Shown piece by piece: positions 1 to 43,818 of a stretch of 64,000 nucleotides of DNA. Made by a program: the position numbers and the translations under genes. Position 1 is the stretch's first letter. The number at the start of each line of letters is the position of its first letter. A model generated the notes under the pieces. It was not told where the DNA came from, searched no databases, and saw only the letters and a program-made list of their open reading frames with translations. The DNA comes from Clostridiales bacterium (GTDB taxonomy: Bacteria; Bacillota; Clostridia; Lachnospirales; Lachnospiraceae): positions 190,527 to 254,526 of the forward strand of contig JAJQCD010000010.1 of NCBI GenBank assembly GCA_021202925.1. Reading direction: 5' to 3'.

Positions 1-1
1 G

Positions 2-142
2 CACATTCGCTATCCAGATATCAAAGAAGATCGGGATGAATACGATTGGACAGTGTTTTTTTCACACATCGGAATGGGAAAAGCTATAGTTGCATATTTA
101 GGAGTATCGTTAAATCAAAGAATCGAATCACACCAAAGATAA
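2..142 (+). CDS. C-terminal end of an unidentified gene (partial)
   Basis: An open frame enters from the left edge and ends at TAA 140-142, giving 46 C-terminal residues that include the stretch EYDWTVFFSHIGMGKAIVAYLG. The start lies outside the window. I do not recognise the family, and no domain can be assigned from so short a tail. The next gene begins 49 bases downstream with its own ribosome site, so co-transcription is possible but not shown. Confidence 0.4.
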   Translation, partial: HIRYPDIKEDRDEYDWTVFFSHIGMGKAIVAYLGVSLNQRIESHQR

Positions 143-191
143 ACGATAAAAGGCATAAAGTATTACTAAAAACGTTTGCGGAGGTGGATGA

Positions 192-1007
192 ATGAATCAT
201 GTACGGAAAAGCCGGATGGAAGTGATACAGCGAGAAGTAGAACGCATACGAAGTTCGAATCTTCTGAGTGATACATTTGCATCGATTGCGCTGGAAGATG
301 CATCAGCGTGCCAGTATGTTCTGCGCAGGATATTGGGACAGGACGATCTAACTGTGTTTCAGGTAAAGGGACAGTATCGGCTCCTGAATCTGACGGCAAA
401 GGATTCTATTCTGGATATTTTGGCGGAAGATGGAGAAGGACGCCTGATGAATCTGGAGATACAGCGCAGGAATACGGTCGACCATCCGAGGCGCACGCGC
501 TATTATGGCTCGATGCTGGACAAGAGCAGCCTGGATAAGGGCCTTACTTATGATAAGATGCCTGATGTCTACGTCATTTATATCAGCGAAAAGGATTTGC
601 TGAAAACCGGTGAATCCGTCAGTTGGGTAAAGAAGAGCCTGGGGAAGAACAGGAAAGCGTATGATGACGGAAGGTACGTCATTTATGTAAATGCTAACGT
701 TGATGATGGGACAGAAGTGGCAGAGATGATGAAATATTTCAAAACCGCCGATCCGGATGACATGAGCCAGGGAGCATTGTCCAGACGAGTACGGTACCTG
801 AAACGGGAAAAAGGAGGATATCAACTCATGTGCGAAGCCGCAGAGGAATTGATCAATTGGGGAAGGGAAGAAGGTCGCGAAGAAGGTGTACTTGATACAC
901 TGATTACGTTGGTACGGGACGGTCTGATTTCCGTGAAGGATGCAGCTGCGAGGGCCAATCTGACAGAGGAAGTTTTTATCAGCAGGATGAGTACGGTTAA
1001 GAAGTGA
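192..1007 (+). CDS. Rpn-family PD-(D/E)XK nuclease / transposase-like protein
   Basis: 271 aa. The N-terminal two thirds match the Rpn (recombination-promoting nuclease, formerly PD-(D/E)XK family transposase) pattern. An aspartate in DSILDILAED is followed by the E-x-Q active-site variant in MNLEIQRR (residues about 78-97), then a Tyr/Arg-rich helix RRTRYYGSML. The C-terminus is charged, with REEGREEG, and ends in a small helical domain. GGAGG at 179-183 sits 8 bases before the ATG. Family knowledge: Rpn proteins are DNA endonucleases often present in many copies in gut Clostridia, and some limit phage. A second member lies at 10713-11639. Its role here is unknown. Family assignment is firm, function is not. 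Confidence 0.8.
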   Translation: MNHVRKSRMEVIQREVERIRSSNLLSDTFASIALEDASACQYVLRRILGQDDLTVFQVKGQYRLLNLTAKDSILDILAEDGEGRLMNLEIQRRNTVDHPRRTRYYGSMLDKSSLDKGLTYDKMPDVYVIYISEKDLLKTGESVSWVKKSLGKNRKAYDDGRYVIYVNANVDDGTEVAEMMKYFKTADPDDMSQGALSRRVRYLKREKGGYQLMCEAAEELINWGREEGREEGVLDTLITLVRDGLISVKDAAARANLTEEVFISRMSTVKK

Positions 1008-1028
1008 TTTGCGAAATATTGTTTTTAT

Positions 1029-1055
1029 GCGGTCTCAGATGAGGCCGTTTTTTTG
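1029..1055 (+). terminator. Rho-independent terminator after the Rpn gene
   Basis: GCGGTCTC-AGAT-GAGGCCGT forms a stem (one G-T pair) followed directly by a run of seven T. It lies 22 bases after the stop of the Rpn gene. Confidence 0.8.
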
Positions 1056-1178
1056 CGTGTGCTGTTTCGTCGCCAAACCGTAATCTGGAAAATATTGGTT
1101 GCAGATTGCAACAGAAAAATATATAATAAAAATAAAATTATAATTTATATATATATTACAAAAGAGGACGATGAAAAT

Positions 1179-1799
1179 ATGCTTTATGATTACCTGAGAG
1201 AGACGTACGGTGAGGATGAGCCCATATTTGTGGCAGAGATTCATTATCGGGATCAGTCGATGAATTATGTCAGGCAGCAGATCATGAGGATGACGGAGAT
1301 GGGGCTGTTAAAGCGATACGATACAGGTATTTATTTTGTCCCATCACAATCGGAATCCGCTTCTGAACTTTCCATAGATAAGGTAATTGACCGGAAGTAT
1401 CTGCAGTCGGAGGGGCAGAGATGCGGCTATATCGGTGGTGTTGCGTTTGCGAACCAGGTCGGACTGACGACGCAGACGCCGACCGAGCTTGAGATTTTTA
1501 CGAACAGGACAGCGAATGATTTCCGGAGGGCGAAGCTGGGGTCTTCGTATCTTATCGTTCGGAGACCGAAGGTCGTGGTGACGGAACAGAATTATCGACA
1601 GCTGCAGTTACTGGATTTGCTAAAGGATATCGATTCTTATACAGAAGTACAGCCAGAGGATCAGTATCAACGGATCGTTGCTTACATGAATGCGTCTCAC
1701 ATCCTCTTCCATGATTTAAGAGATTATCTGCCGTATTATCCGGATCGGATTTACAAAAATATGTATCAGGTTGGATTGCTGGAGGGGGCGATGAAATAA
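1179..1799 (+). CDS. AbiEi-like / DUF6088 antitoxin-type protein without a visible toxin partner
   Basis: 206 aa from ATG 1179, which has AAAGAGGA about 10 bases upstream; longer in-frame extensions lack a good start. An N-terminal winged-helix segment (YVRQQIMRMTEMGLLKRYDTGIYF) is followed by a core containing CGYIGGVAFANQVGLTTQ and ELEIFTNRTANDFRRAKLG. This is the arrangement of DUF6088/AbiEi-type transcriptional antitoxins that normally precede an AbiEii nucleotidyltransferase toxin. In the 290 bases before the next gene I see no AbiEii reading frame, so this copy appears orphaned. It may regulate a toxin elsewhere or be a relic. The family call is by pattern recognition only. Confidence 0.6.
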   Translation: MLYDYLRETYGEDEPIFVAEIHYRDQSMNYVRQQIMRMTEMGLLKRYDTGIYFVPSQSESASELSIDKVIDRKYLQSEGQRCGYIGGVAFANQVGLTTQTPTELEIFTNRTANDFRRAKLGSSYLIVRRPKVVVTEQNYRQLQLLDLLKDIDSYTEVQPEDQYQRIVAYMNASHILFHDLRDYLPYYPDRIYKNMYQVGLLEGAMK

Positions 1800-2088
1800 A
1801 TCCGGCCTGCAGTCTGCCTGCAGGTCTGGCAGCATGATTCGCGCCTGGATGACAGTGGATTCCGGCCATGCAGGCGAAGCCGTCCGGTATCAGATAGCCA
1901 GGTAAAGTCCGGTTTTTTTCTCAGAATATGGAAAATGTGACCAGTTACAGGTTCTGAAGTAGTATATTAACAGACATAGCTTGCCATAATTTCGACAAAG
2001 GAAGATGCAAGAAAGGCGACACGTTTCTGCATGGAAAGCAATGGCGGATTAACAGAGAAATATCTCATCAGAGCGGGAGGTTTGAGCG

Positions 2089-2997
2089 ATGCGTAAGACA
2101 AAAAGCAGGGTGATATACAAAAAGGTACTGGAGGATTATCGGAGGACTTTGATTGAGGAAGAGAAGAGCGGGAATACAATTGAACAGTATCTGCGTGATC
2201 TGGAGGGTTTCATGCATTTTACGAATGGGAAGCCGGTGGATAAGAAGATGGCGGTGGAATATAAGATGAAGCTGTCCAAAACCTATAAGCCAAGGAGTGT
2301 GAACGTGAAACTCTGCGCAATCAATGGGTTCTTTAAACGGCTGGGGTGGTATGAGTGTACGGTAAAACTGATGAAGATTCAGAAGGACACCTTCCGCCCG
2401 GTGGATAAGGTGATGACAAAAGAGGAGTATGGGATGCTTTTGGCTGCGGCGAAGCGCCTGGGGAAGAGACGGTTAAGTCTCGTGATGCAGACGTTATGTT
2501 CGATGGGGCTAAGGGTGAGCGAACTGAGATTCATCACCGTAAAGGCCGTCTGTCAGGGATACGCAGATGTGACGCTGAAGGGGAAGACCCGGACGGTTCT
2601 TCTGCCTGAGGATTTGATGGTTTTACTCGGGGAGTATATTCGCGACATCGGCATTTCGGATGGCTGCGTGTTCGTCACCAGGAGCGGAAAAGCACTGGAT
2701 CGGAGCAATATCTGCCATGAGATGAAGGCGTTGGGCGAGAAGGCCGGACTCAAACGGAGCAAGATTTTTCCACACAACCTGCGACATTTATTCGCCTGTG
2801 TATATTACGCCGAGGAGAAGAATGCGAACCATCTGGCAGATATTATGGGCCATTCCAGCCTGGATACGACGCGTATCTATACGCAAGGCAGTATGGAAGA
2901 GGAACTGATGGCCTTAAATAAGATGGGGCTGGTGGATCTCTCCGATTTCCGGCTGGAACACAAAACGGGGATCCGGGCAAAAGAAAAGACCGCATAA
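2089..2997 (+). CDS. Tyrosine site-specific recombinase (Xer/RecV-like), probable invertase of the phase switches
   Basis: 302 aa. An N-terminal SAM-like core-binding domain (about 15-95) is followed by a catalytic domain with the complete active-site set: Arg in GLRVSELR, Lys in KGKTRTVLLP, HNLRH, His in MGHSSLDTT, and the nucleophile Tyr in RIYTQ. GGGAGG lies just upstream of the ATG. The final codons and the TAA stop (2995-2997) lie inside the left inverted repeat of the adjacent invertible element, so the gene abuts its likely substrate. Inversion leaves its coding sequence intact because the repeat half is restored. Family knowledge: Mpi and RecV tyrosine recombinases flip several promoters in trans in Bacteroides and C. 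difficile. No second recombinase gene occurs near the second switch at 41.5 kb, so this protein is the natural candidate for both. Confidence 0.88.
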   Translation: MRKTKSRVIYKKVLEDYRRTLIEEEKSGNTIEQYLRDLEGFMHFTNGKPVDKKMAVEYKMKLSKTYKPRSVNVKLCAINGFFKRLGWYECTVKLMKIQKDTFRPVDKVMTKEEYGMLLAAAKRLGKRRLSLVMQTLCSMGLRVSELRFITVKAVCQGYADVTLKGKTRTVLLPEDLMVLLGEYIRDIGISDGCVFVTRSGKALDRSNICHEMKALGEKAGLKRSKIFPHNLRHLFACVYYAEEKNANHLADIMGHSSLDTTRIYTQGSMEEELMALNKMGLVDLSDFRLEHKTGIRAKEKTA

Positions 2998-3229
2998 TCT
3001 ATATTATGCGGTCACATGAATTCGATGGTTTCATTCTACAACATTACGAAAGAAAAAGCAAGATAATTCCTTGAAAAATACGAAAAACGGAATATGGAAC
3101 CGGGTTCCGGCTGTTGACGAGATTTCGACAGTCGTATTTCCTGCGTCTGAAATTATGTATAAAACGATGGATTTACAGTTCATTGACCGGGTTTTGCACA
3201 CGTTTACCTCATAATATAGATTATGCGGT
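2989..3229. repeat. Invertible promoter element 1 (inverton): 24-bp inverted repeats flanking 193 bp
   Basis: The left repeat at 2989-3012 and right repeat at 3206-3229 are reverse complements at 23 of 24 positions. Each repeat is also nearly palindromic: arms GACCGCATAAT and ATTATGCGGTC around a 4-base centre, CTAT on the left and ATAG on the right. The asymmetric centre sets orientation, so recombination between the sites inverts the interior. The interior carries a good promoter on the minus strand (3033-3061) pointing left, away from the HTH/adhesin genes. Flipping it would place the promoter about 95 bases before the HTH start. The recombinase gene ends inside the left repeat. A homologous element lies at 41459-41686. 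Confidence 0.88.
3033..3061 (-). promoter_or_regulatory. Sigma-A promoter inside inverton 1, currently facing left (OFF)
   Basis: Read on the minus strand: TTGCTT (3061-3056), 17 bases, TAGAAT (3038-3033). As drawn it would transcribe through the left repeat and antisense into the 3' end of the recombinase gene. After inversion it would drive the HTH gene and the large adhesin. The same two hexamers with the same spacing occur in the second element, and downstream bases are also related, which argues that the promoter is selected rather than chance. Confidence 0.8.
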
Positions 3230-3299
3230 GGAATCGGATAAAAAAGGTCTGGGATAAGGTGAAGAGAGAACGCAGGAACAGACGAAGGAGGAATGAGAC

Positions 3300-3560
3300 T
3301 TGAGACGAGTCTACAAAGTGACGCCGGAGGGAATGGTCATCAAGCTGTTGATGGCGCAGAACAATCTCACAGTGAAGGAACTGGGCAAGCGGGTCGGAAA
3401 GAGTGAGGCTACTGTTTGCGATGTGATTTCAGGCAAAAATAAGAGTGAGAAGACATTAAACCTGATACTGGAAACCTTACAGGAAGACGGTGTGGTCAAT
3501 ATTTCGGAATACCGTCAGATTTATGATATTCTGCTCAAGGCAGAAGAATGCAGAGGGTAA
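3300..3560 (+). CDS. Small HTH (Xre-like) regulator heading the adhesin locus
   Basis: 86 aa from TTG 3300, with AAGGAGG at 3285-3291. One compact helix-turn-helix fold: NNLTVKELGKRVGKSEATVC is the recognition unit, followed by SGKNKSEKTLNLILETLQ. It is a clear paralogue of the 41810-42097 product (shared TPEGM, MAQNNLTV-type and CDVISGKN segments), with the same TTG start and ribosome site. Both genes lie directly after an invertible promoter and before surface-protein genes. I infer that it is the first gene of a phase-variable transcript and modulates the operon or the switch. The target is unknown. Confidence 0.75.
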   Translation: MRRVYKVTPEGMVIKLLMAQNNLTVKELGKRVGKSEATVCDVISGKNKSEKTLNLILETLQEDGVVNISEYRQIYDILLKAEECRG

Positions 3561-3908
3561 GACGCGTCAGGCGGATAGGAAGGGATCTTGTTTCGTCAGA
3601 TGGAAAAGAAACGAACAGGAAGGGGACAGTCTGATTTCTGTTGGCTGAGAGAAGCCGAAAGAAAGTAAGACGATTATATAGTATAGGGGAACCCCGCGAG
3701 ATTCCGATTGCATACAATCCTTGTGGCTGATCTACGGTACCTGGATTGCAAGGGGAATTTCAGAAATATTTGCGAAAAACGGAGGTAACGCGAATGGTGT
3801 GATGGCGCAGTGGAAAACTGCGGGAATCAATGAGAACGACAGAAAATGGAATCATGTCGAAGTGAAAAACTGGCTTTGACAAATAAAATAAAGAAGGAAG
3901 GGGAGAGA
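3561..3908 (+). other. 348-bp leader between HTH gene and adhesin gene
   Basis: No convincing gene is visible. There is no clear terminator, and no strong promoter in either orientation, consistent with read-through from the HTH gene. The stretch ends with a GGAAGGGGAG ribosome site for the ATG at 3909. Confidence 0.4.
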
Positions 3909-6900
3909 ATGAAAGTGTCTGGAAATAAGGACAGAGGGCGAAGCCGCAGGAAGAAAGTGACATTGGCTTCGCGGTTTTATGCTGAGATGATGAAAGCAAA
4001 GCGATGGATTTCGGCAGCTGTTTGTATCAGTATGCTCGGAAGCAGTGTCGTGAATCCGGCGATGCTGGCTTATGCGGATTCGTCGTCAGATGATGAGGAA
4101 ATTCAGGAATTTGAGCTGGAGAGCGAAGCGATCGGACAGGCTATTACGGAAGCCATTGCCGATGGTTCGCAGGTCAGTGCAGAGGAACTGGGCTTTTCCG
4201 GCGCAGAGGAAGATACGTATGCGGAGTTATTTGACGCAGATGGTTTGTTATATGAAGTAAAACCGGAGATTGAAGAGACCAAAGATGATGATGGGGATCT
4301 CGATCTGCGGATATTTGTGCGTCTGGATGTGGTGGATTTGCTGGACGAGGGCGAGATCCTGGACAGCTATGAGATCACCGGAGATGAAGATGTATTCTTC
4401 ATGCTCGTGAACAACACAGATACCGAGCAGAATGCCATCGTGATTGTCGATGGCAGAGAGACGGATGTGATTACGGTTGCACCGGAGAGCGAGGTTGCGG
4501 AAGCGGCTGCGGAGGATGCTGAGATCGTCATTCCGGCCGGTGGAGGATCCGGCGCGGGTAGTGCATCGGATGAGGAAGCGGAAACGGAAGTTGTTATCCT
4601 GGATGAGGAAGCAACGGAAGAAGCGGAATCAACAGATGATACGGACGACGCTACGGACGATGCAGAGCCGACAGACGATGAAACGGACGATGCAGAGCCG
4701 ACAGACGAAACAGACGAAGCTGATTCAGCAGACGAAACAGACGAAGCTGATTCAGCAGACGAAACAGACGATGTGGAATCGAAGGACGAAACAGAGGACG
4801 CGGGTTCGACAGACGAAGCAGAGGCAGAGGATGAGGATGATGCCGATCCGACGGATGATACGGATCAGGATGATGCGGCTGACGAGGATCAGGATGATAC
4901 AGGCGCAGAAGATTCTGGAGATAAGGATGCAGACACCGAATCGGATACGGATTCTGATAGTACCGATAGTACCGATAGTAGCGACGGCAGCGATAGTAGC
5001 AATAGCAGTGATAGTAGCGACAGCAGCGATAGTAGCGACAACGGTGACAGCGGCAATAGCAGTGACAGCAGCGACAGTTCCAATGACAGCAGCGATTCAT
5101 CGGAAGTGGCGTCGATTTCCGTTCACAAGTACAACCTGGTGACACTGGCCGCTTCTCCGACTGATGCAGAAGAAGCGGAAGAAGTGCTGATCGTGTCGGA
5201 AGACAGCAATCAGCTGGATGGCGAGCTGTATGACGCAGTTGCCATGGAAGACGGCGCGGCCGTGGTATTCGTGACAACGACAGAAGAACTGGGCCTGGAA
5301 GGTTTGCTTTCCGAAAGTTATACCGTATACACGGCGGAGACTGAGACAGCCGCAATTACGGCTCTGGTTCCAGAGGGCGCTTTCGATGAGGAAGTCAGTC
5401 TGTATGCAGAGGATATCACTGAAGATTCCGACCAGTATGCGGATGTGAAAGAGAGCGTTGACAGCCAGGCGGCAGAGGAAGGCTTGACCGATTACAGCTT
5501 TGTTGCGTATGATATTTGCTTTAAGAATGCGGCTGATGAAGAGATAGAGCCGAATGAAGGCGCTTCGATTCGCATCTCGATTTCTGCGCTGAGTGACAGC
5601 ACAACGGAAACGACGAGTGACGAAACTGTTGAATTGTCGATGTATCACATCAAGGATGACGGTACGGTAGAAAGCCTTGAGACAGAAACAGAGGCAGACG
5701 AAACTGGCGCGATTCAGACAATCAACTTTGAATTAGACAGCTTTTCGATTACCGTTGCGGTGACTTCGATTAACGACGAAAAGACACTTACTGTTGATGC
5801 TAGTGCAAGCGAGGTGACAGGTGAAACCTACACCTCCATCCAGGCAGCAATTGATTATATCAATACACAGGATGATAAGACTGGGTGGACAATCAACGTA
5901 ACCGATGGTACCTATGATCGTTTCAGAGTAGAATCTGGCGTAGATAGTCTGACCATTATTGGCAATGGTGATGGTACGGTTATTCAGACCATGGTTGGAA
6001 CTGAAAAGGTTTATGGCAATACTGATCCCAATGGCATCATCGTAAATGCAAGCAATTTCACATTGAAAAATGCAAAAATTACAAAGGGCACCTCTGTTGT
6101 TGCAACAGCCGCTGCATGGAAATCATGCGCCATTTTCCTCCCTTCTGGTGGCGCCGCTGACGGTTTTACCCTCGATAATGTGAATATTGTAGCTGATGAT
6201 GGCGGGTATGGTGTGTTTGCAGATAACAAAGAAGATGTGCTTACAATTAATAACTGCGCATTTAGTAATTTGACCTATGCCATTTATTACTATAATTCCT
6301 CCAGTGGTCCAGAGAGTGTTACGATCACAAATAACACGTTTAGTGACTGCTCCTTTGCCCTGTTTATGGACTACGCTGCTGTACCAGTGAACAGTTCAAC
6401 AGGAACTGGTGCTGTGATTTTTTCCGGGAATACAGTAACAGGTACTTCCGATTTGCGTTGTAAGGTTGTGATCGAAGACGAGCAGGAAAAGAACGCTGTT
6501 ACTGTAACGATCGAAAGTAACAAGTTGAGTTACGCACTGATCGGAACTGTAAATCTTCGGGCTGAAAATGAATGCAGTGACGTGTTGAGTAAAAATACGT
6601 TCATAAACGATAGCTTTTATGTAGATGCCATTTATCCGGGAGATATTACTGTTACCTGGGTATCCTATCAGGCTCCTGAAAATGATGAAGGGTCTTGGGT
6701 TTTGACCGGAATTGACGGAACACTGACTTACAGCGAGCAAGTGCAGGCTGCAATTGATGAAGCCAATGCCAGTGGTTCGCACACACTGAATATTACAGGT
6801 CTTGATACAGACGACGACGGAGATATTGATACATTGATGGAAACGTTTACTGCCATCAAAGACTGCATCTACTGGGAGAGTAAGAGTTCGGGTGGAGAAA

Positions 6901-6926
6901 CTGTAACGCCAACAGGGACTGATTAG
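3909..6926 (+). CDS. Giant LPXTG adhesin, N-terminal part, ended by an in-frame TAG
   Basis: 1005 aa from ATG 3909 (ribosome site GGAAGGGGAG; an upstream in-frame ATG at 3846 lacks one). A signal peptide with a charged start and hydrophobic core ends near MLAYA-D. Next come an acidic region, long Asp/Glu/Ser/Thr repeats (about 240-400), an Ig-like segment, and a parallel beta-helix-like part with Asn ladders (about 650-900). The frame ends at TAG 6924-6926. The downstream frame continues in phase for 1200 more codons with two VWA domains and the sorting signal, so this is one gene cut by a single codon. In the internal duplicate around 8451 the matching codon is TGG (GAT TGG GAC versus GAT TAG GAT), so the stop is most simply a TGG-to-TAG change. 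Without read-through the product would be secreted unanchored. Confidence 0.82.
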   Translation: MKVSGNKDRGRSRRKKVTLASRFYAEMMKAKRWISAAVCISMLGSSVVNPAMLAYADSSSDDEEIQEFELESEAIGQAITEAIADGSQVSAEELGFSGAEEDTYAELFDADGLLYEVKPEIEETKDDDGDLDLRIFVRLDVVDLLDEGEILDSYEITGDEDVFFMLVNNTDTEQNAIVIVDGRETDVITVAPESEVAEAAAEDAEIVIPAGGGSGAGSASDEEAETEVVILDEEATEEAESTDDTDDATDDAEPTDDETDDAEPTDETDEADSADETDEADSADETDDVESKDETEDAGSTDEAEAEDEDDADPTDDTDQDDAADEDQDDTGAEDSGDKDADTESDTDSDSTDSTDSSDGSDSSNSSDSSDSSDSSDNGDSGNSSDSSDSSNDSSDSSEVASISVHKYNLVTLAASPTDAEEAEEVLIVSEDSNQLDGELYDAVAMEDGAAVVFVTTTEELGLEGLLSESYTVYTAETETAAITALVPEGAFDEEVSLYAEDITEDSDQYADVKESVDSQAAEEGLTDYSFVAYDICFKNAADEEIEPNEGASIRISISALSDSTTETTSDETVELSMYHIKDDGTVESLETETEADETGAIQTINFELDSFSITVAVTSINDEKTLTVDASASEVTGETYTSIQAAIDYINTQDDKTGWTINVTDGTYDRFRVESGVDSLTIIGNGDGTVIQTMVGTEKVYGNTDPNGIIVNASNFTLKNAKITKGTSVVATAAAWKSCAIFLPSGGAADGFTLDNVNIVADDGGYGVFADNKEDVLTINNCAFSNLTYAIYYYNSSSGPESVTITNNTFSDCSFALFMDYAAVPVNSSTGTGAVIFSGNTVTGTSDLRCKVVIEDEQEKNAVTVTIESNKLSYALIGTVNLRAENECSDVLSKNTFINDSFYVDAIYPGDITVTWVSYQAPENDEGSWVLTGIDGTLTYSEQVQAAIDEANASGSHTLNITGLDTDDDGDIDTLMETFTAIKDCIYWESKSSGGETVTPTGTD
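4612..5105 (+). repeat. Tandem acidic and Ser-Asp repeats inside the adhesin gene
   Basis: Direct DNA repeats encode DETDEADSA-type units around 4710-4770, where a 27-base block occurs twice in a row. They are followed by SSDSSDSSD-type units built on GATAGTAGCGACAGC-like hexamers around 4950-5100. Such repeats form extended, negatively charged stalks in Gram-positive adhesins and are prone to length change by slippage. Confidence 0.8.
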
Positions 6927-6980
6927 GATATTTCAAAATCGAAAACAGCTACCAATCTGGATTCGAATTATGAGTCCAAT

Positions 6981-9900
6981 GTGACTCTTTCCCTTCCTTC
7001 CGCGAGCTATACGGGAGATCTGGATGTAGTATTTGTTTTAGACGGTTCGACCAGTACAGATGAGAAGGGATTAGTTGAACAGGCAGCGAACCTGTTGGAA
7101 AGCCTTCTGGATTATGAAAACCTGACAGTGAAAGCAGGGGTCGTTATCTTTGGCGGTTCAAATCCGATTCTTTATAACAGTGAGCTGTCTGAGTTGGATA
7201 CAGAAATATGCAGTACCCTGATAAAAGAAATGACAGATACTGATTATGGTAAAAATGAGGAGGGACATAAGGGCTACGGCTGTTCCGGCAGCAACCTGCA
7301 GGCCGGTGTCGAAATCGCTCGCGGTCTACTCAATGGTGATAGTAGTGTAGATGTGTCAGATAAATATATGATCATTCTTTCGGATGGCGCTGCCCGCATG
7401 TGGTATGAAAATAATGCGGCTATGTCGCAAACTTATACTACAGGTAGTACAATCTTTTGGAATAGTAATGAAGACTGGATAAAACGTTATGATAATTCAG
7501 GATATAATGTTTCTGATGCTTGGACAGGATTAGAGGCAAATGGTGTAACGAAACCTGTGTTCAGCGAAATATGGTCTGCCGGTCAAAACGATACAGACAT
7601 CGGAAATTATGGAATGACCGAAGATGAAAAAAATAGTGCAAGTCCGGATGATTCCGGGGTCGCTTCATGGAAGACGGTGGCAACTGATCCGGATTATTAT
7701 ACGACATATGAAGCTGCCTGCTATTACGCAGCAACTTCAATTGTAGAGGCTTCGAATGAATCGAATGTAATCATGGTGACATATCCATACCACTCTGAAA
7801 GAAGCTATGGTGAATTCATTGATGAGTTCAAGGACTGGCTGGAGAACTGTGTCACGCGATATGAGAGCAGCGAAGCGGATGCCGAAACGATTTTTGCCAG
7901 TGTGAAGGACGACCTGATCCAATTGGTAGACGCCGGAAGCACGGTAGTTGATGTAATTGGTAAAACAGACGAGTATGATTTCGATTTTGTTGACGATGCG
8001 GAGAAAATCAGCCTGACCGTCGGCGACGTGACGTACACCACGACAAAAGTGGATGCAACCAACGAAAATGAGACTTCCTGTTATACTTTCACCAGCGACG
8101 GAGTGACAGCAACCAATGGTGCACAGGCTCCATTTGTTCTTCACTACTATAAAGATGGAACAACGGATATTTCCGGAGAGTGTTTCGTATGGGATATCAA
8201 TGTACCTGTGACAAAAGATCAGAAGGTGCAGCTTACCTACACGGTGAAATTGATGAACCCGTCTTCAGTAAGCGGAACCTATGGCACGTATGACAATGAT
8301 GGCAGTGAAGGGTATAATGGTCTCTATACGAACAACAGCGCTACACTGAATCCGGTAGACAGCAACGGAGATCCTGGAACTCCGGAAGATTTCCAGAAAC
8401 CAACCGTATCTTATGAGATACTTTCCGGAACGACGACAGATTGGGACTACTCAAAATCAAAAGAGGCCACAAATCTGGAAAAAGATTCGGATGATAATTA
8501 TTATTCGGATGTGACGTTGTCCTTGCCTTCCGCACAGGAGTCGCTGGTATCTGACGTGGTGTTTGTCCTGGATAAATCCACGAGTAATGATACGGAAGAT
8601 AATGCTCTTGCTATGTTGCGGGATTTAAAGACTCAAGTGGAATCTGTAGGCGCACAGGTTAAGGTCGGCGTGGTGATTTTTAACAAAATTGCCAACGTGA
8701 CGGACTTCATGGATCTGACCACAGAATACGATAAGATTGAGTCTGCGATTACACAAACTATATCTGGTGGAACCAATATGCAGGCTGGTCTTCTGGCGGC
8801 CAAAGAGATGCTTAAAGAGGATACTGAGGTCGAGAACAGCCGGAAATATATGATTCTTGTCAGTGACGGCCTGTCCTATTATTTCTGTCAGGAAGAAGAT
8901 TATAATAAAGCGTATACAATCGCTTTGTACGATTCCTATGGTGGATTAAACAGCTATACTGGTATTGAATGCTGGAACGCAAAATATGAAGATTATAATT
9001 TCAGTCCGGATAGCTGGAAAGCCTGGATGGGGACGGTATCAGGCCTTTTGGAGACGACAGATTATGAACAGTACGTTTATGAAGTGGATTCCGAATTTTC
9101 AACGGGAGTACCGTATGATGAAATAGCTGATTACCCCATTAACGCTGACCTCTCGCTGTACTATTCAAGCGAATTGTATTCAGAGCTGGCAAATACATAT
9201 CGGTGTTATGCAGTATACAATGGAACCTCCGCATATAAGTGGGGTACCACCTTTATGAATTATCTGTCAGATGGAGAAACCGTTTCATTTGAAGAGATTG
9301 AGGATAATATTATCTATCTTCTTGACAAAGGAAGTACTGTTGTAGACTATATAGGTTATGTTGCCGGAACGGACGGGTACAATTTTGACTTTGTCGATGA
9401 CGCCGCTTATCTGACATTAACGGTAGGTGCGGAAACGTATGCAGTCACAGAGATCACCGAAGGACTGGAAGCTGGCGAAACATCCCAATATGGTTTTGGA
9501 AATGTAATCGTTAGCGAAGAAGGAGAAACTTATTATCCGTTTGTTCTTCATTACTACGCCGGTGAAAAGCTGGATGATGAGTATTTCGTATGGGATATCA
9601 ACGTTCCGATCAGTAATTTTGTTCAGGTTCAGCTGACCTATCGGGTGATCCTGACGAATCCACAGACAACTGCTGGAACCTATGGCGTGTATGATCAGTA
9701 TGGAGATAATAATGACGGCAGTGCAGGTTATGACCTCTATACCAATAACAGCGCAACGCTCTATCCGGTAGACACCAACGGAAACGAAGGCGATCCGGAA
9801 GATTTCCAGAAGCCGACGGTAGAGTATACGGTGGAGAATTCTCCGACGGCTCCGACCGATCCGACAACGCCGACCGATCCAACCGATCCGACGACACCGG

Positions 9901-10544
9901 ATGAAGAGGAAGAGACCGGCGATCTGACGGTGACCAAGGTGGTAACCGGAAGCGGAGGAAGTACAACAAAAGAGTTCACATTCAAAGTTACCCTCGATGA
10001 TACCAGCATCAACGGAACCTACGGTGACATGACGTTTACAGATGGTGTCGCAACCTTTACTCTGAAGAGTGGAGAAAGCAAGACAGCGACCGGGCTTCCG
10101 GCAGGCATTGGCTATACGGTGACCGAGACGGCGGCAAGCGGGTATACGACGTCGGTTGATGGGACAACGACATTGACATCCGAGGGTACGATTGAAAGTG
10201 GCAGCACCATTACGGTGACCTTTACCAATTACAAAGCGAAGTCCAGTTCCAGCAATAGCGGTAATGGCGGCGGAAGTTCCAGCAGTTCAAGCAGTTCAAC
10301 CTCTGGAACGACAGCAGGCTCCTCGAGCGGGCCGGGCGTAACCTCCAGTGATTCGGGAACATCCGGTTCGGGTGATCCGGGCGACCCGGGCGATCCGGCG
10401 TCTTCTTCCGATGCGGATCCGCTGACCGCGCTTCCGAAGACCGGAGACAATGGAATGAACACAGCCATGTTTACCCTTCTCTTCGGAATGGTGGCAGTAG
10501 CATATGTCATCCTTTCTGATCGCAGGAAGGAAAAAGAGAACTAA
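6981..10544 (+). CDS. Giant LPXTG adhesin, C-terminal part: two VWA domains, DUF7601/CnaB-like domain, LPKTG anchor
   Basis: This is the in-frame continuation of the gene starting at 3909. The first possible GTG after the TAG is at 6981 but has no ribosome site, so independent translation is doubtful. Two tandem copies of a roughly 490-residue unit each open with TLSLPSA followed by a von Willebrand A domain. The MIDAS motif is DGSTS near 7041 and DKSTS near 8571, and each unit ends at a NNSATL...PEDFQKPTV segment. Then come a Pro/Thr linker, a DUF7601/Cna-B-like stalk domain (GDLTVTKVVTG to TFTNYKA), a Ser/Gly linker, and the sorting signal LPKTG at 10431-10445 with membrane segment and RRKEKEN tail. 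Family knowledge: VWA pilin tips bind host matrix through the metal site. Nothing in this locus encodes a sortase, so the pilus locus at 44 kb or a housekeeping enzyme would have to anchor it. Confidence 0.8.
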   Translation: MTLSLPSASYTGDLDVVFVLDGSTSTDEKGLVEQAANLLESLLDYENLTVKAGVVIFGGSNPILYNSELSELDTEICSTLIKEMTDTDYGKNEEGHKGYGCSGSNLQAGVEIARGLLNGDSSVDVSDKYMIILSDGAARMWYENNAAMSQTYTTGSTIFWNSNEDWIKRYDNSGYNVSDAWTGLEANGVTKPVFSEIWSAGQNDTDIGNYGMTEDEKNSASPDDSGVASWKTVATDPDYYTTYEAACYYAATSIVEASNESNVIMVTYPYHSERSYGEFIDEFKDWLENCVTRYESSEADAETIFASVKDDLIQLVDAGSTVVDVIGKTDEYDFDFVDDAEKISLTVGDVTYTTTKVDATNENETSCYTFTSDGVTATNGAQAPFVLHYYKDGTTDISGECFVWDINVPVTKDQKVQLTYTVKLMNPSSVSGTYGTYDNDGSEGYNGLYTNNSATLNPVDSNGDPGTPEDFQKPTVSYEILSGTTTDWDYSKSKEATNLEKDSDDNYYSDVTLSLPSAQESLVSDVVFVLDKSTSNDTEDNALAMLRDLKTQVESVGAQVKVGVVIFNKIANVTDFMDLTTEYDKIESAITQTISGGTNMQAGLLAAKEMLKEDTEVENSRKYMILVSDGLSYYFCQEEDYNKAYTIALYDSYGGLNSYTGIECWNAKYEDYNFSPDSWKAWMGTVSGLLETTDYEQYVYEVDSEFSTGVPYDEIADYPINADLSLYYSSELYSELANTYRCYAVYNGTSAYKWGTTFMNYLSDGETVSFEEIEDNIIYLLDKGSTVVDYIGYVAGTDGYNFDFVDDAAYLTLTVGAETYAVTEITEGLEAGETSQYGFGNVIVSEEGETYYPFVLHYYAGEKLDDEYFVWDINVPISNFVQVQLTYRVILTNPQTTAGTYGVYDQYGDNNDGSAGYDLYTNNSATLYPVDTNGNEGDPEDFQKPTVEYTVENSPTAPTDPTTPTDPTDPTTPDEEEETGDLTVTKVVTGSGGSTTKEFTFKVTLDDTSINGTYGDMTFTDGVATFTLKSGESKTATGLPAGIGYTVTETAASGYTTSVDGTTTLTSEGTIESGSTITVTFTNYKAKSSSSNSGNGGGSSSSSSSSTSGTTAGSSSGPGVTSSDSGTSGSGDPGDPGDPASSSDADPLTALPKTGDNGMNTAMFTLLFGMVAVAYVILSDRRKEKEN

Positions 10545-10574
10545 GAAAATGGTTTTATAAGGGAATGGTTTCAG

Positions 10575-10608
10575 ACACGCGGAGATTCCGGTAATCTCCG
10601 CGTGTTTT
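10575..10608 (+). terminator. Strong intrinsic terminator after the adhesin gene
   Basis: A perfect 13-bp stem (ACACGCGGAGATT with AATCTCCGCGTGT) around CCGGT, followed by TTTT, begins 31 bases after the stop codon. Confidence 0.85.
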
Positions 10609-10650
10609 ACGTCCTGCGTTATCAAAATATTAAAAACATTTGAAAAAAGA

Positions 10651-10679
10651 TTGAATCATAATTTTGCATGGGTTATACT
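10651..10679 (+). promoter_or_regulatory. Sigma-A promoter of the second Rpn gene
   Basis: TTGAAT, 17 bases, TATACT. The promoter overlaps the in-frame ATG at 10668, which supports the later start at 10713. Confidence 0.6.
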
Positions 10680-10712
10680 GTACATGGGATTCCTCTTTGT
10701 GGAGGATATCGT

Positions 10713-11639
10713 ATGTTACAGAAGTTTCAGGATTTGACAATCAAAAATTCGTTTATGTTTGCCGCTGTTATGAGCAACGAAGAGCTGTGTCGTCGTCTGT
10801 TAGAAGTGATTCTGGAGATTCCTATCCGGAAGGTATCGATCGTCACGGAAAAGACGATAAACTATCATCCGGAATACCATGGCATACGTCTGGATGTGCT
10901 TGCAGTAGAAGACGGGACAGAGCGCCGGTTCAATGTTGAGATGCAGGTCAAGCGAAAGGACGGACTATTTCACAGGTGTCGTTATTATCACGCACACATG
11001 GATATGGATGCTCTGTTGGCTAATATGGAGTACACGAACCTTCCGGATTGTTATGTTATCTTTATCTGTGATTTTGATCCGTTGAATTCTGGCCTGTATC
11101 GTTATACCTGCCAGATGGCATGCAGGGAAAACGGACAGATTCTGTCTGATGGAAGCAGGACGGTTTTGCTGAATACAAAGGGAATGAATCCAGAAGACAT
11201 TCCGAAGGAACTTGTGGACTTTCTTACGTATGCGCGACATCCGGACCAACCGACACAGAACATGTTACAGGATGATTTTGTGAGGTCTCTGGATAACGAA
11301 GTAGCGGCAATCAAACGAAACAGAACCTGGGAGGCGAAGTATATGCGTTTCATGGAGTTGCTGGAGGATGAACGCGCGGAGGCACGCGCGGAAGGACATG
11401 CGGAAGGACATGCGGAGGGACATGCGGAGGGACGTGCGGAAGGACGTGCGGAAGGACGTGCAGAAGGTCGCGCTGAGAGCCGCACGGAGGATATCATTGA
11501 TCTTTTACAGGAACTTGGAGATGTGCCGGAAGATATTCTTCAGCGGATCAGTAAGGAGAATGAGGAAGCTGTCTTGAAGAAGCTTCTTCGACTTGCGGCG
11601 AAGGCGGAGTCCTTTGAGGCATTCCGGGAGAAGATGTAG
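10713..11639 (+). CDS. Rpn-family PD-(D/E)XK nuclease with tetrapeptide repeat tail
   Basis: 308 aa from ATG 10713 (GGAGGA at 10701-10706). It starts MLQKFQDLTIKNSFMF, as many Rpn proteins do. The nuclease core shows the Asp of IRLDVLAVED and the E-x-Q motif in FNVEMQVKR, then RCRYYHAHMD. The C-terminal linker is seven near-identical AEGH/AEGR units encoded by a 12-bp tandem repeat, then a short helical domain. It is only distantly similar to the Rpn protein at 192-1007. It stands alone between two terminators with its own promoter. Confidence 0.82.
   Translation: MLQKFQDLTIKNSFMFAAVMSNEELCRRLLEVILEIPIRKVSIVTEKTINYHPEYHGIRLDVLAVEDGTERRFNVEMQVKRKDGLFHRCRYYHAHMDMDALLANMEYTNLPDCYVIFICDFDPLNSGLYRYTCQMACRENGQILSDGSRTVLLNTKGMNPEDIPKELVDFLTYARHPDQPTQNMLQDDFVRSLDNEVAAIKRNRTWEAKYMRFMELLEDERAEARAEGHAEGHAEGHAEGRAEGRAEGRAEGRAESRTEDIIDLLQELGDVPEDILQRISKENEEAVLKKLLRLAAKAESFEAFREKM
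11388..11471 (+). repeat. 12-bp minisatellite in the Rpn gene (7 units)
   Basis: Seven back-to-back units of GCGGAAGGACRT type, with few substitutions and an eighth decayed unit following, each encode Ala-Glu-Gly-His/Arg. The unit length keeps the reading frame, so copy-number change would alter linker length without breaking the protein. Confidence 0.9.
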
Positions 11640-11725
11640 AAGTAAGCGTACAGAAGATAAGGTATGAAATTAAGATGGTAAACAGTCAATTTTATCGAAA
11701 AGAGAGGAATCCTGTTTACAAATGA

Positions 11726-11776
11726 AAAAACCTGTCCTTGCACAACGGATCGTTATTGTGCAAAGACAGGTTATTT
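11726..11776. terminator. Bidirectional terminator between convergent genes
   Basis: AACCTGTCCTTGCACAA pairs with TTGTGCAAAGACAGGTT (one mismatch) around a short loop. A-tracts lie on the left and a T-rich tail on the right, so it can stop both the Rpn transcript and the minus-strand gene, whose stop codon (11771-11773) lies in its edge. Confidence 0.75.
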
Positions 11777-12208
11777 TGCTTTGCATGAGAATTGTCTGCG
11801 CCATGAGTGGTGAGGAGAATTTGGTCGATTCAGCCCGTGCTTATGTGTTTTTTGATATAAGCGGATGGTGTCATCCTGATTTTGATTCAGCAAACGGACG
11901 TATGCAAGGATGCCCTCCGAGATGCGGGAGATATCTTCCTCCTTGTGAAGCCGGTAAAGCGTATCGGAGACTTCTGCGAAGGGAGCGGAGGACATCTGGG
12001 TTTCCAGGGAAATGATGATGTTGTCGCACAACTGCAGAAGGAAGTCCCGGTTGGATACCCCCAGCAGGATTTTTTCCAGGTCTTCTGTCGTTTGCTGATG
12101 ACGCGTGGAATCCTTTTCTGCCAGAATGAGAATCAGATGGTTGACCCGTTCGACAATCGTGCCATAGTTGAAATTCGGTATAATCGTCGTTCTGTCTATA
12201 AAATACAA
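11771..12208 (-). CDS. Hypothetical protein, probably a 5'-truncated gene fragment
   Basis: 145 aa if started at the TTG 12208, but the same frame stays open to about 12295 without a plausible start or ribosome site. There it runs antisense into the L-fucose isomerase remnant. The visible sequence is mainly helical (residues 15-110) with a basic tail. I do not recognise the family. The abrupt junction with another broken gene suggests a deletion or insertion scar that removed its 5' end. A terminator follows at once. Confidence 0.4.
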   Translation of the reverse strand: MYFIDRTTIIPNFNYGTIVERVNHLILILAEKDSTRHQQTTEDLEKILLGVSNRDFLLQLCDNIIISLETQMSSAPFAEVSDTLYRLHKEEDISRISEGILAYVRLLNQNQDDTIRLYQKTHKHGLNRPNSPHHSWRRQFSCKAK

Positions 12209-12289
12209 CAGATCATATCGTTTCAGCCTCTGAATGACGGGCAGCAGCAGGGTCTTTAAGCTGGAGTAGGAAATCCGTCGGTACTCGAT

Positions 12290-12598
12290 AGAGGTACCTT
12301 CTATCGTCTGCAGAGCACCGCGGACAGTAAGCTGTGTGCCTATGTGGCCCAGGGCGAAGTGCTTCCGGTTGCAACGCGCTCATTTGGTTCGGTCGGTATT
12401 TTTGCGATCCCGGAGATGGGACGTTTCTACCGTCATGTTCTGATTGAGAAGAACTATCCGCATCACGGCGCAGTGGCGTTCGGACATTACGGGAAAGCAC
12501 TTTATGAAGTATTCAAATACATCGGCGTGGATGTGAATGCGATTGGATATAACCAGCCAAAGGGCATGAGGTATGCGACGGAAAATCCATTCGCGTGA
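12290..12598 (+). pseudogene. fucI: L-fucose isomerase, C-terminal fragment
   Basis: An in-frame stretch of about 100 codons (GTFYRLQSTADSKLC onward, including MGRFYRHVLIEKN, PHHGAVAFGHYGK and YNQPKGMRYATENPF) matches, by recognition, the C-terminal domain of L-fucose isomerases. The rest of the roughly 590-residue enzyme is absent. The frame meets the minus-strand fragment near 12290. A terminator typical of a gene end is kept at 12668. It is a remnant without a start site and is not expected to be functional. Confidence 0.65.
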
Positions 12599-12667
12599 AA
12601 ATTCAGCCCAAAATTAACGATAGAAGCTGCCATTGCCTGCTGCTTCGCATACAACGGCAGATGGAAG

Positions 12668-12693
12668 AGCCGGAAGCTTTTTCCGGCTTTTTT
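12668..12693 (+). terminator. Intrinsic terminator after the fucose isomerase remnant
   Basis: AGCCGGAA-GCTTT-TTCCGGCT is followed by a run of T; a perfect 8-bp stem. Confidence 0.85.
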
Positions 12694-12770
12694 CTGTCTG
12701 TTTCCGGAAGTTTTTTGCCGCGTCAGATATCGTTCGGGCGGGCAGTTTTGTCATGCGTCAGAAAACAGGG

Positions 12771-12799
12771 TTGAGAAAAGAAAGAAAAACACATATAAT
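12771..12799 (+). promoter_or_regulatory. Sigma-A promoter of the AAA-ATPase-like gene
   Basis: TTGAGA, 17 bases, TATAAT, 38 bases before the start codon at 12837. Confidence 0.75.
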
Positions 12800-12836
12800 A
12801 GAGACGGGTTATAAAAGGGAAGGAGGATGTAGCTTC

Positions 12837-14426
12837 ATGGGAATCTATTTAAACCCGGGGAACCGGGGATTTCAGGTAATCCGGAATGGAAAGTACGTTG
12901 ATAAAACCGGACTGATTGCTTATGTGAATCGAACACTCAATACTCCTCAGAAACTGACATGCTTCAGCCGCCCTCGTCGTTTTGGAAAGTCATTTGCAGC
13001 GAAGATGCTCTGTGCGTATTATGACAAGAGCTGTAACTCACGTTTTCTGTTTGAAGGACTGGAAATATCGAAGAAAGATTCGTTTGATAAGTACCTGAAC
13101 AAGTATGATGTGATTTATCTGGATATTACATGGTTTGTTTCAACAACTGCCGATATAAACAGGGTGGTTGAGGATGTGCAGAACAGTGTCATTGAAGAGC
13201 TGAAAAATGAATTTTGGGAGCTTGTTCCTGAGAATGAAAAATCCATGCCACGGGTTATGTCTGCGATCGCCACAAAGACAGGCAGACAGTTCATTGTTAT
13301 TATCGACGAATGGGACGCGCTTTTTCGCGAAGCGAAAGATAATGAGACGCTTCAAAAGAAATACGTTCAGCTTCTTAGGGGTCTTTTTAAGGGCGGAACC
13401 GTAACGGATGAGACGATTGCGGCCGCCTATATGACCGGTATTCTCCCGATAAAAAAATACGGGACGGAGTCAGCGCTGACGGATTTTCAGGAATTTACGA
13501 TGGTTGCACCGGATGCGTTGGCACCGTATGTTGGATTTACAGAACAGGAAGTCCTGGATTTGTGTGATCAGAATCATCTGGATTTTGAAGAAGTAAAGTT
13601 TTGGTATGATGGTTATTTCTTTGAGGGCGTTGGATCGGTGTACAGTCCGAATTCCGTCATGCAGGCGGTTGAGAGAAAGTCACTGAGAAACTATTGGACA
13701 ACTTCGGAAACTTATGAATCACTGGCTGCTTATATTGGAATGGATTACAGAGGGTTAAAAAAAGATGTGATTCGTATGCTCGGCGGTGAAGCGATCAGAG
13801 TCAGAATCAGTACCTTCCAAAATGACATGACCTCTTTTAAAAGTAAGGATGATGTGCTGACACTATTGATTCATCTGGGATATTTAAGCTATCATACGGC
13901 GACAAAGAAGGTGGTGATACCAAATCAGGAAGTGGCGGATGCTTTTGGCGATGCCACAGATCAGGAGGGATGGGAAGAGATAGGAGAACTGATTCGGGAA
14001 TCCGATGATTTGCTGGATGCGACACTTGGCGGTGATTCGGATGCAGTAGCAAAGGCACTCGAGAAAGTACATGAGGCAAATTCCTCTGTCTTACGCTACA
14101 ATAATGAGGCAGCTCTCAGCAGTGCAATTATGATCGCCTATTACACGGCAAGAAGAATATACAAAATTGTGCCGGAGTTTCCACAGGGAAAGGGATTTGC
14201 CGATCTGGCCTTTCTTCCGCGCAGGGGGTCGGATAAGCCGGCTATGATTGTGGAACTGAAATATGAGAAAGACGCAGATACGGCAATCCGCCAGATACAT
14301 GAGAATCGCTATGATGGCGATTTGAAAAAGTATTTTGGCAACCTGCTTCTGGTAGGGATTAACTATGACAAAGACGCAAAGGGAATCCATGCGAAGAGAC
14401 ATAGCTGTGTGATTGAACGAGCGTAA
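12837..14426 (+). CDS. AAA-ATPase-like / PD-(D/E)XK nuclease domain protein (copy 1)
   Basis: 529 aa from ATG 12837 (AAGGAGG, 10 bases upstream). The N-terminal AAA-ATPase-like domain carries an unusual Walker A, SRPRRFGKSF, and Walker B in IVIIDEWDALF. A middle region has the family signature MTGILPIKKYGTESALTDF. The C-terminal PD-(D/E)XK nuclease domain shows Asp in KGFADLAF, the E-x-K core in MIVELKYEKDADTA, and HENRYDGDLKKYF. This two-domain family is highly multi-copy in gut Clostridia and Bacteroidetes; its function is not established. A close paralogue is at 53068-54660. Both copies sit beside broken genes (fucI before this one, an FMN-binding fragment after the other). Confidence 0.85.
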   Translation: MGIYLNPGNRGFQVIRNGKYVDKTGLIAYVNRTLNTPQKLTCFSRPRRFGKSFAAKMLCAYYDKSCNSRFLFEGLEISKKDSFDKYLNKYDVIYLDITWFVSTTADINRVVEDVQNSVIEELKNEFWELVPENEKSMPRVMSAIATKTGRQFIVIIDEWDALFREAKDNETLQKKYVQLLRGLFKGGTVTDETIAAAYMTGILPIKKYGTESALTDFQEFTMVAPDALAPYVGFTEQEVLDLCDQNHLDFEEVKFWYDGYFFEGVGSVYSPNSVMQAVERKSLRNYWTTSETYESLAAYIGMDYRGLKKDVIRMLGGEAIRVRISTFQNDMTSFKSKDDVLTLLIHLGYLSYHTATKKVVIPNQEVADAFGDATDQEGWEEIGELIRESDDLLDATLGGDSDAVAKALEKVHEANSSVLRYNNEAALSSAIMIAYYTARRIYKIVPEFPQGKGFADLAFLPRRGSDKPAMIVELKYEKDADTAIRQIHENRYDGDLKKYFGNLLLVGINYDKDAKGIHAKRHSCVIERA

Positions 14427-41458: not shown

Positions 41459-41686
41459 ACCACATAATCAACATTATGTGGTCGAATAAACTCGATGTTT
41501 TTATTCTACACTAATCATATCAAAAAAGCAAGCGAAATCATTAAAATTTTAAAAAAATATGAAGAAAAATGCAGCCTGACTGCAATGTCTGTTCTGAAAA
41601 CCGGATATTTGTGTCATGATGATGGTCAGAAATGGCGTATTGGCAAGGCTTTGCGCGGCTTAACCACATAATGTTGATTATGTGGT
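41459..41686. repeat. Invertible promoter element 2 (inverton): perfect 24-bp inverted repeats flanking 180 bp
   Basis: The left repeat 41459-41482 and right repeat 41663-41686 are perfect reverse complements (24 of 24). Each is itself a dyad, with arms GACCACATAAT and ATTATGTGGTC around CAAC on the left, and GTTG on the right. Arms and layout match element 1 (CCRCATAAT ... ATTATGYGG). The interior again carries a minus-strand promoter facing left. No recombinase gene is adjacent, so the recombinase at 2089-2997 probably acts in trans. Inversion would aim the promoter at the HTH/pilus operon. Confidence 0.88.
41503..41531 (-). promoter_or_regulatory. Sigma-A promoter inside inverton 2, currently facing left (OFF)
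   Basis: Minus strand: TTGCTT (41531-41526), 17 bases, TAGAAT (41508-41503). Hexamers and spacing are identical to those in element 1, and the bases after the -10 (ACATCGAGTT versus CCATCGAATT) are also related. Confidence 0.8.
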
Positions 41687-41809: not shown

Positions 41810-42097
41810 TTGAAGCGTGTACACAAAGTCACGCCGGAAGGAATGCTGATCAAGATGCTGATGGTACAGAATAACCTCACGGTAAGGGAGCTTGGCAATC
41901 GGATTGGGAAGGCGGATGCGACGATCTGCGATGTGATATCGGGTAAGAACCGGAGCAGGAAGACGCTGGATCTGATCATGAGCGCTTTGCAGGAGGGCTC
42001 GACGGCAGACCTTTCGGAATACCGGAATTTTATCGCAACTCAGTTCAGTGACACCGACGCCCGGACAGAAGAAGAGGCGGAGGAATGTGTGACATGA
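41810..42097 (+). CDS. Small HTH (Xre-like) regulator heading the pilus operon
   Basis: 95 aa from TTG 41810, chosen because the paralogue at 3300 uses the same TTG with the same AAGGAGGG spacing; an in-frame ATG at 41786 lacks a site. Helix-turn-helix: NNLTVRELGNRIGKADATIC, then SGKNRSRKTLDLIMSALQ. The shared N-terminus RVxKVTPEGM makes it a clear paralogue of the locus-1 protein. First gene after inverton 2, so expression should depend on switch orientation. Target unknown. Confidence 0.78.
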   Translation: MKRVHKVTPEGMLIKMLMVQNNLTVRELGNRIGKADATICDVISGKNRSRKTLDLIMSALQEGSTADLSEYRNFIATQFSDTDARTEEEAEECVT

Positions 42098-42115: not shown

Positions 42116-42406
42116 ATGACAGATAAGGAACTGAAGCGCCTGAGCCGGGGCGAACTGCTGGAGATGCTGTTGATCCAGATCGAGGAGAATGAAGGTCTCA
42201 GAAAGAGTCTGGCCGATGCTGAGGCGGCCCTTGCGGACCGGAAGATCCAGATTGAGGAAGCAGGATCGCTGGCAGAAGCAGCGCTGAGACTGAACAAAGT
42301 CTTTGAAGCGGCAGATCAGGCGGCAAGCCAGTATCTGGAGAATATCCGCAGGATGGCGGAGAAAGCAGAGGAAGGAAACACAGAGCCATGGGAAGACGGG
42401 CGGTAA
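42116..42406 (+). CDS. Small coiled-coil protein of unknown function
   Basis: 96 aa, almost entirely charged helix. Residues 10-50 have heptad-like Leu/Ile spacing (LLEMLLIQIEENEGLRKSLA), and the tail is acidic. No signal peptide, so it is cytoplasmic. It overlaps the signal peptidase gene by 19 bases, which suggests translational coupling. Similar small helical proteins accompany pilus signal peptidases in related bacteria, in my recollection; the role is unknown. Confidence 0.6.
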   Translation: MTDKELKRLSRGELLEMLLIQIEENEGLRKSLADAEAALADRKIQIEEAGSLAEAALRLNKVFEAADQAASQYLENIRRMAEKAEEGNTEPWEDGR

Positions 42407-42975: not shown

Positions 42976-42994
42976 AAAGGAACAGGTGAAACAA

Positions 42995-43813: not shown

Positions 43814-43818
43814 ATAAT

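Follow-up and report, generated by a model that had tools for sequence, protein, structure and literature searches.

A candidate invertible promoter in front of a helix-turn-helix gene and an adhesin locus, one of four switches with common arms and different centres in a clostridial genome

Two 24-bp inverted repeats in front of a small helix-turn-helix (HTH) gene and an adhesin locus raise the question of whether the DNA between them is a promoter segment inverted by a recombinase, or whether the repeats are operators, terminators, attachment sites or the relics of a switch that is now locked. The window analysed here is the whole stretch of 64,000 nucleotides (64 kb), which was compared with its 3.17 Mb source genome (G000), 24 genomes of the genus and 397 genomes of the family. 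On the strength of these sequence comparisons we give a probability of roughly 0.9 to the reading of 2989-3229 as an invertible promoter cassette flipped by a Xer-like tyrosine recombinase.

Anatomy of the cassette and its neighbours

The locus contains the following features:

2089-2997, plus strand: tyrosine recombinase, 302 aa (Pfam Phage_integrase 2.5e-23, SAM-like N-domain 8.5e-6)
2978-3013, minus strand: terminator-like element that the left site would form in an OFF transcript, an 11-bp hairpin and then CTTTTCTTTT
2989-3012, plus strand: candidate left recombination site, ACCGCATAATCTATATTATGCGGT, centre CTAT (TCTATA)
3013-3205: candidate invertible segment, the 193 bp enclosed by the sites, aligning reversed relative to its flanks against the C18 paralogue
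3033-3061, minus strand: candidate promoter TTGCTT-17-TAGAAT, facing the recombinase (OFF), with a counterpart in 9/9 HTH-type cassettes
3206-3229, minus strand: candidate right recombination site, ACCTCATAATATAGATTATGCGGT, the same centre inverted (ATAG)
3300-3560, plus strand: small HTH protein, 86 aa, first gene behind the switch (HTH_3 3.6e-5)
3909-6926, plus strand: N-terminal part of the adhesin, ending at an in-frame TAG (6924-6926) and without a Pfam hit at 1e-3
6981-10544, plus strand: C-terminal part of the adhesin in the same frame, with VWA, DUF7601 and an LPKTG-type anchor

The two sites are inverted repeats, equal at 23/24 positions and 193 nt apart, and each forms a dyad whose 4-base centre is not palindromic (left CTAT, right ATAG). 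The extended arms of the left site read GACCGCATAAT...ATTATGCGGTC. With up to three mismatches allowed, the 24-mer has no third copy across the 64 kb window and no match in 100 dinucleotide-preserving shuffles. The recombinase frame stops in the half of the left site that lies away from the segment and that inversion would not exchange, so that the recombinase stop would be kept in both orientations. An earlier note made from the DNA letters had described the repeats with their asymmetric centres, the end of the recombinase gene inside the left repeat and the enclosed promoter, all of which are borne out, the promoter lying on the minus strand at 3061-3033. It was also right, as anatomy, that the promoter as assembled faces away from the HTH gene and the adhesin (OFF).

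The recombinase carries the catalytic domain of the phage-integrase superfamily (PF00589). Residues R142, K166, H229, R232, H255 and Y264, which we take to be the R-K-H-R-H-Y catalytic residues of the tyrosine recombinase family, do not vary among seven aligned recombinases. The best solved chains are 4a8e (named XerC-like) and 5hxy (XerA). All 11 NCBIfam matches fall below their cut-offs, among them the equivalogs XerC (100.9 vs 335.15 bits), XerD (102.9 vs 329.6) and archaeal XerA (133 vs 220), and by these scores the protein is Xer-like only and no Xer equivalog. The close recombinases of the source genome are that of the window (C10) and those on C18 (75%) and C13 (72%), with two more at ~30%; the locus of the C13 recombinase contains no strong inverted pair.

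For a transcript directed at the recombinase, the left site reads as an intrinsic terminator, with an 11-bp stem (-16.3 kcal/mol, z -3.65) followed by UUUUCUUUU. In nine related cassettes, defined below, the recombinase-side site is followed by at least six T in ten in 6/9, vs 0/9 for the HTH-side site (maximum 4; Fisher 0.009 between sides). With hairpin and T tract on the recombinase side, termination at the site would be favoured for an OFF transcript and read-through for an ON transcript, which would make the left site a putative one-way terminator. The T tract is missing in 3/9 cassettes, the left hairpin of C18 is weak (-4.3 kcal/mol), and terminator-like sites in 1900-4100 number 2 vs 1.2 expected from shuffles. 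Coding constraint is an alternative source of the A-rich stretch where the recombinase ends in the site, because that stretch also encodes the recombinase C-terminus; against it stand the C4 and second C10 switches, which have no adjoining recombinase.

An adhesin does lie behind the switch, as the earlier note had it, but the "giant adhesin gene" of that note is not a single open frame, being split by the TAG at 6924-6926. In our own reading its start at 3909 is signal-peptide-like and its end bears the LPKTG-type anchor. The interruption is either a mutation or an assembly error, and since the frame is interrupted, the ON state may yield no more than a truncated protein here. At the C4 locus the counterpart adhesin-like frame runs uninterrupted for 1904 aa.

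Two further observations concern the surroundings of the adhesin. The leader between it and the HTH gene of this C10 locus (3594-3788) has a 72% conserved counterpart at the C4 locus (L010 7128-6929), its one match among the loci compared. Rfam gave no match at E 1 in window positions 1-14000, and eight matches in L010 6500-8000 were all under their gathering scores; the leader is possibly an RNA element or attenuator. The adhesin locus is flanked by PD-(D/E)XK transposase-like and AAA-ATPase/PDDEXK genes (192-1007, 10668-11639 and 12831-14426).

Four switches in the source genome and the orientation of their promoters

The core CATAAT-N4-ATTATG occurs at eight places in the 3.17 Mb genome, which form four inverted pairs, and a reversed-pattern control in the same genome gave 0. 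The single switch seen in the earlier note is real and is in fact one of these four, which have common arms, promoter and HTH family, and centres that are all different: CTAT at 2989-3229, CAAC at a second switch on C10, ATGT on C4 and GTAT on C18.

A genome search with the 421-bp neighbourhood of the cassette found the paralogue on C18. Both its flanks match the window on the same strand (recombinase side 75% over 935 nt, HTH side 76% over 289 nt), and the intervening cassette matches on the opposite one (74%, E 2e-35). The C18 cassette is thus in the opposite, ON orientation, with its promoter facing the HTH gene. In our own reading of the translations, this gene is followed by one for a phosphatase-like protein and by another whose parts resemble a chain-length regulator and an epimerase.

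The second switch on C10 falls within the window:

41459-41482, plus strand: left site, centre CAAC
41503-41531, minus strand: candidate promoter TTGCTT-17-TAGAAT, facing away (OFF)
41663-41686, minus strand: right site, CAAC centre inverted
41810-42097, plus strand: HTH gene, start codon by analogy
42116-51315, plus strand: surface operon with sortase-dependent pilus genes

This operon encodes a signal peptidase I, a class C sortase, a second sortase, a pilin with isopeptide and LPXTG domains, a pilin-like protein (below cut-off) and a fibro-slime-domain protein. The C4 switch precedes an HTH gene and the 1904-aa adhesin-like frame, and the loci behind the four switches are those of a VWA adhesin, a pilus, a second giant adhesin and capsule-type genes. 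No recombinase match lies within the 14-kb stretch of the C4 switch, and the recombinase nearest to the second C10 switch is that of the 2989-3229 switch, ~39 kb off. These two of the four, having no adjoining recombinase, would have to be served in trans.

The string TTGCTT-N17-TAGAAT has two copies in the window, 3061-3033 and 41531-41503. A generic promoter scan of 1900-4100 (at least 4/6 per hexamer) does not list the copy at 3061-3033, because its -35 element TTGCTT is weak, with a poor match to sigma-A; the scan gives 2 promoter-like sites elsewhere, against 3.0 expected. The case for this candidate promoter rests on conservation in relatives. Nine complete cassettes, each with both sites and an HTH gene of the same family, were available for comparison (four of G000 and five of the relative G007); the set excludes G007:C4, with one site at a contig end, as well as the G011, G016 and G017 pairs. 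TTGC[TA]T-17-TA[GA]AAT is present in 9/9, a count that describes a fitted pattern, the expression having been widened by eye after its first version missed C51 and C87 of G007. The end of the -10 element is 32-33 nt from the site centre in all nine.

Seven of the nine cassettes are OFF and two are ON, G000:C18 and G007:C154, in which the promoter faces the HTH gene. Untrimmed, 22/22 same-state and 14/14 opposite-state pairs align as predicted, in part by construction, because the state was read from the promoter. For a whole-segment flip test, 75 nt were removed at the promoter end and the remainder of the 36 cassette pairs was aligned. Under these conditions 13/14 opposite-state pairs align better as reverse complements, and 18/22 same-state pairs align better unreversed (4/22 reversed), a contrast with a Fisher p of 1.5e-5, in which the pairs are non-independent and many of the differences small, few large. 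The clearest reversed alignments are C10a-C18 (36.5 vs 6.9) and C51-C154 of G007 (44 vs 9). As in invertons, inverted repeats flank a promoter upstream of the gene it would control, the promoter being recognized through its conservation alone, and the orientation of the segment would set the transcription of the downstream gene.

All the evidence on orientation comes from comparing paralogous or related loci or species, which is compatible with a switch that was once active and is now locked OFF, and the TAG in the adhesin frame would fit a gene decaying behind such a switch. We think this unlikely: the recombinase frame is intact and holds the presumed catalytic residues, the central 16 bp of 2989-3012 and 3206-3229 are perfect inverted matches, and two paralogous recombinases could also act on the sites. 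A switch that can still be flipped is the reading we prefer.

The HTH genes behind the switches form a rare family, found in 3/397 family genomes and 4/24 genus genomes. The presumed recognition helix A-T-[IV]-C-D-[VI]-[IV]-S-G-K-N holds in nine aligned copies, eight from switch loci and one without a switch, and this stretch is nearly identical at the eight switch loci. Its sameness suggests one shared DNA target, and our guess is that the HTH protein might be a trans-acting coordinator. In the loci examined, 3/7 HTH copies of G000 have no inverted pair (C4:157320, C18:298375 and C28:53001, with none scoring at least 14), as have 2/8 of G007; 2/5 copies of G002 have a pair of the ACAAC class. 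Going by these sequences, HTH and switch are separable. One switchless copy in G000 precedes another adhesin-like frame (L087 2-5542), with no cassette in the stretch examined.

Crossover centres and sites in relatives

Searched for with the site alone, the core matches in 14/24 genomes of the genus. Switches with the same HTH family were found in G000 (four) and G007 (five with both sites and one at a contig end), and all six centres of G007 differ. A survey with site and promoter across 397 family genomes gave four places, all in the source genome; among the matches listed, the 397-genome draws hold G000 and G020 alone of the genus, so that they speak for other genera. Many single site matches have no recombinase, HTH gene or partner within the stretch examined, and at least two, in G007:C25, appear in our own reading to be coding sequence of a phosphomutase-like gene.

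The recombinase of the window has 31 relatives in 12/24 genus genomes (3/31 with an internal stop). The pair search used 30 of them, one having no locus, and found a strong inverted pair in 17/30 loci, each of them 3' of the gene, vs 0/90 Markov shuffles. Among the 13 loci without a strong pair, a contig end truncates nine within 320 bp, and a weaker pair is present in one. Contig ends within 320 bp of the gene are confined to the 3' side (9/30 vs 0/30 on the 5' side, p 0.002), a pattern that would fit samples of mixed orientation and is only suggestive.

Many sites are found close to contig ends, but a Fisher test of contig ends was set aside, as it counted G023 and G001, for which other causes are likely. 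In G023 one cassette end recurs on three contigs, and the gene start in G001 may belong, in our own reading, to a mobile element. The G023 site, GTTCGCATAATGTTTATTATGCGAAC, stands at three contig ends (L070, L071 and L072) and may be a dispersed repeat or a multi-partner switch.

Site arms vary with the recombinases beside them. Arms CATAAT...ATTATG accompany recombinases of at least 67% identity, and also some at 40-45%; CATAAT...GTTATG accompanies recombinases at 50-53%, and ACAACNGAAT...TTNNGTTGT those at 41-45%. Sites of the form ACAACNGAAT...GTTGT, with matching centres, make up a separate class in G010, G014 and G002 (L109, L112, L110, L121, L129 and L102), where they adjoin 41-45% recombinase relatives or HTH genes.

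Strand exchange by tyrosine recombinases needs homology in the crossover region, a demand that can be followed at the centres of the paired sites. A first set of pairs came from a search with the core pattern, in which the centre is unconstrained. The centres match when inverted in 12/12; mismatches number 0/48 at the centre vs 37/120 at unconstrained arm positions (Fisher 7e-7). A second set consists of 12 of the 17 strong pairs, found from the recombinases without a site pattern and none of them from G000 or G007; the remaining five were already in the first set, and two of the 12 are common to both sets. Here mismatches are 0/144 within 6 bp of the centre vs 23/168 at positions 7-13 (p 5e-7), and 0/120 vs 20/140 (p 4e-6) minus the two common pairs. 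As the second set was chosen for inverted repeats, overall similarity is expected of it; a concentration of that similarity at the centre is not.

These matches bear on whether the dyads might instead be operators of the HTH protein, or simple terminators, in a segment that does not invert. The sites are near-palindromic and of operator size, an HTH gene adjoins them, and the left one reads as a terminator. An operator or hairpin, however, needs no match between non-palindromic centres, and such matches are found throughout both sets; in G006, G008, G013, G016 and G017, moreover, sites stand beside a recombinase in genomes where this HTH protein has no match at 1e-6, and cassettes occur in both orientations. 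We regard operators or terminators as very improbable, and the matched centres, which fit strand exchange by a tyrosine recombinase, point to recombination sites.

The same centres bear on attachment-type sites for the excision or integration of a small element. The near-palindromic form of each site makes the pair 88% identical as direct repeats, as such an element would have them. The asymmetric centre is nevertheless inverted between the copies in 12/12 pairs, no gene was seen in the segment, and all eight core matches in the genome are paired, with none single, so that we give excision hardly any credence.

Inversion is therefore the reading carried forward, and the invertible-promoter switch proposed in the earlier note gains strong support from comparison, through the paralogue in opposite orientation, the nine cassettes and the matching centres. 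A Xer-like recombinase, from the adjoining gene and/or the C18 and C13 paralogues, would bind the dyad arms, and the matching asymmetric centres would align the two sites so that the 193-bp segment is inverted. As assembled (OFF), the promoter would aim at the recombinase and its transcript run into the left-site hairpin and U-tract; after inversion (ON), it would aim at the HTH gene and, behind it, the surface operon. That the segment flips in living cells, and by this recombinase, is what we infer from the sequence comparisons.

The private centres CTAT, CAAC, ATGT and GTAT would confine each pair to recombination within its own locus, and loci whose centres match within a pair and differ from one another are predicted not to recombine with each other. 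Different centres by themselves are weak evidence; by our own estimate random 4-mers would rarely collide. Tentatively, and with more doubt than confidence, the switches may form an address-coded network in which few recombinases flip four (here) to six (in the relative) surface switches in cis and in trans, private centres insulate the loci, and the HTH protein of an ON locus acts on a common target elsewhere, coordinating the surface.

Comparison with known systems

Recombinase-linked invertons of Clostridia are already known: in the available text of Jin et al. 2025, inverton group 139, with 32/33 members from the class Clostridia, is tied to tyrosine recombinase invertase group 35 (PMC11892184). 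The likeness to the switches described here, inverted repeats beside a tyrosine-type recombinase, is one of description, and that text, as far as available, does not mention private centres, nor does "helix-turn-helix" appear in its main text (PMC11892184).

The earlier note had taken the use of the recombinase from the precedents of RecV and Mpi, both of which differ from the present system. According to the excerpted account of RecV in C. difficile, it is a tyrosine recombinase of the XerC/XerD family that inverts several segments away from its own gene, and by this description it resembles the present system in recombinase type, in having several segments and in the action in trans that is predicted here (PMC5903667). 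The promoter of cwpV, by contrast, lies outside the invertible segment, termination having been proposed in the portion of that report available (PMC2784873), whereas the promoter is inside the segment in 9/9 cassettes here, which do not follow the cwpV type of RecV switch. The repeats of the C. difficile switches are given in the same excerpted account as unrelated, except for Cdi2 and Cdi5 (PMC5903667); the loci of the present system have common arms and different centres. Mpi of Bacteroides fragilis is described there as a serine recombinase, and its regulon is similar in that one recombinase system serves many invertible regions of surface genes (PMC5903667), but the recombinase of the window is of the tyrosine type (PF00589) and the system is not of the Mpi kind.

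In the fim switch of E. coli, as outlined in the available part of the cwpV report, a promoter likewise lies in an invertible segment with a recombinase adjoining and a surface structure behind it (PMC2784873). The present system differs in having several loci per genome, a recombinase gene that ends inside the site and an HTH gene first in the operon. Since its switches sit before adhesins, pilus and capsule-type genes, they would set the surface that a cell shows.

In the literature searched, parts of which were accessible, we found no description of shared arms combined with private centres, and an earlier account may be in print. The apparent novelty lies in the multi-locus layout of common arms and private centres, in the common HTH first gene and in the one-sided terminator-like site. 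If the reading is true, it would explain how one genome can undergo many inversions without being scrambled, and swaps of centres between loci would predict which loci recombine. Engineered lox variants with the same arms and different spacers form insulated recombination pairs. The arrangement in the window is a natural one, in which insulation is deduced from the centres, and, if true, it would be the natural counterpart of engineered orthogonal recombination sites.
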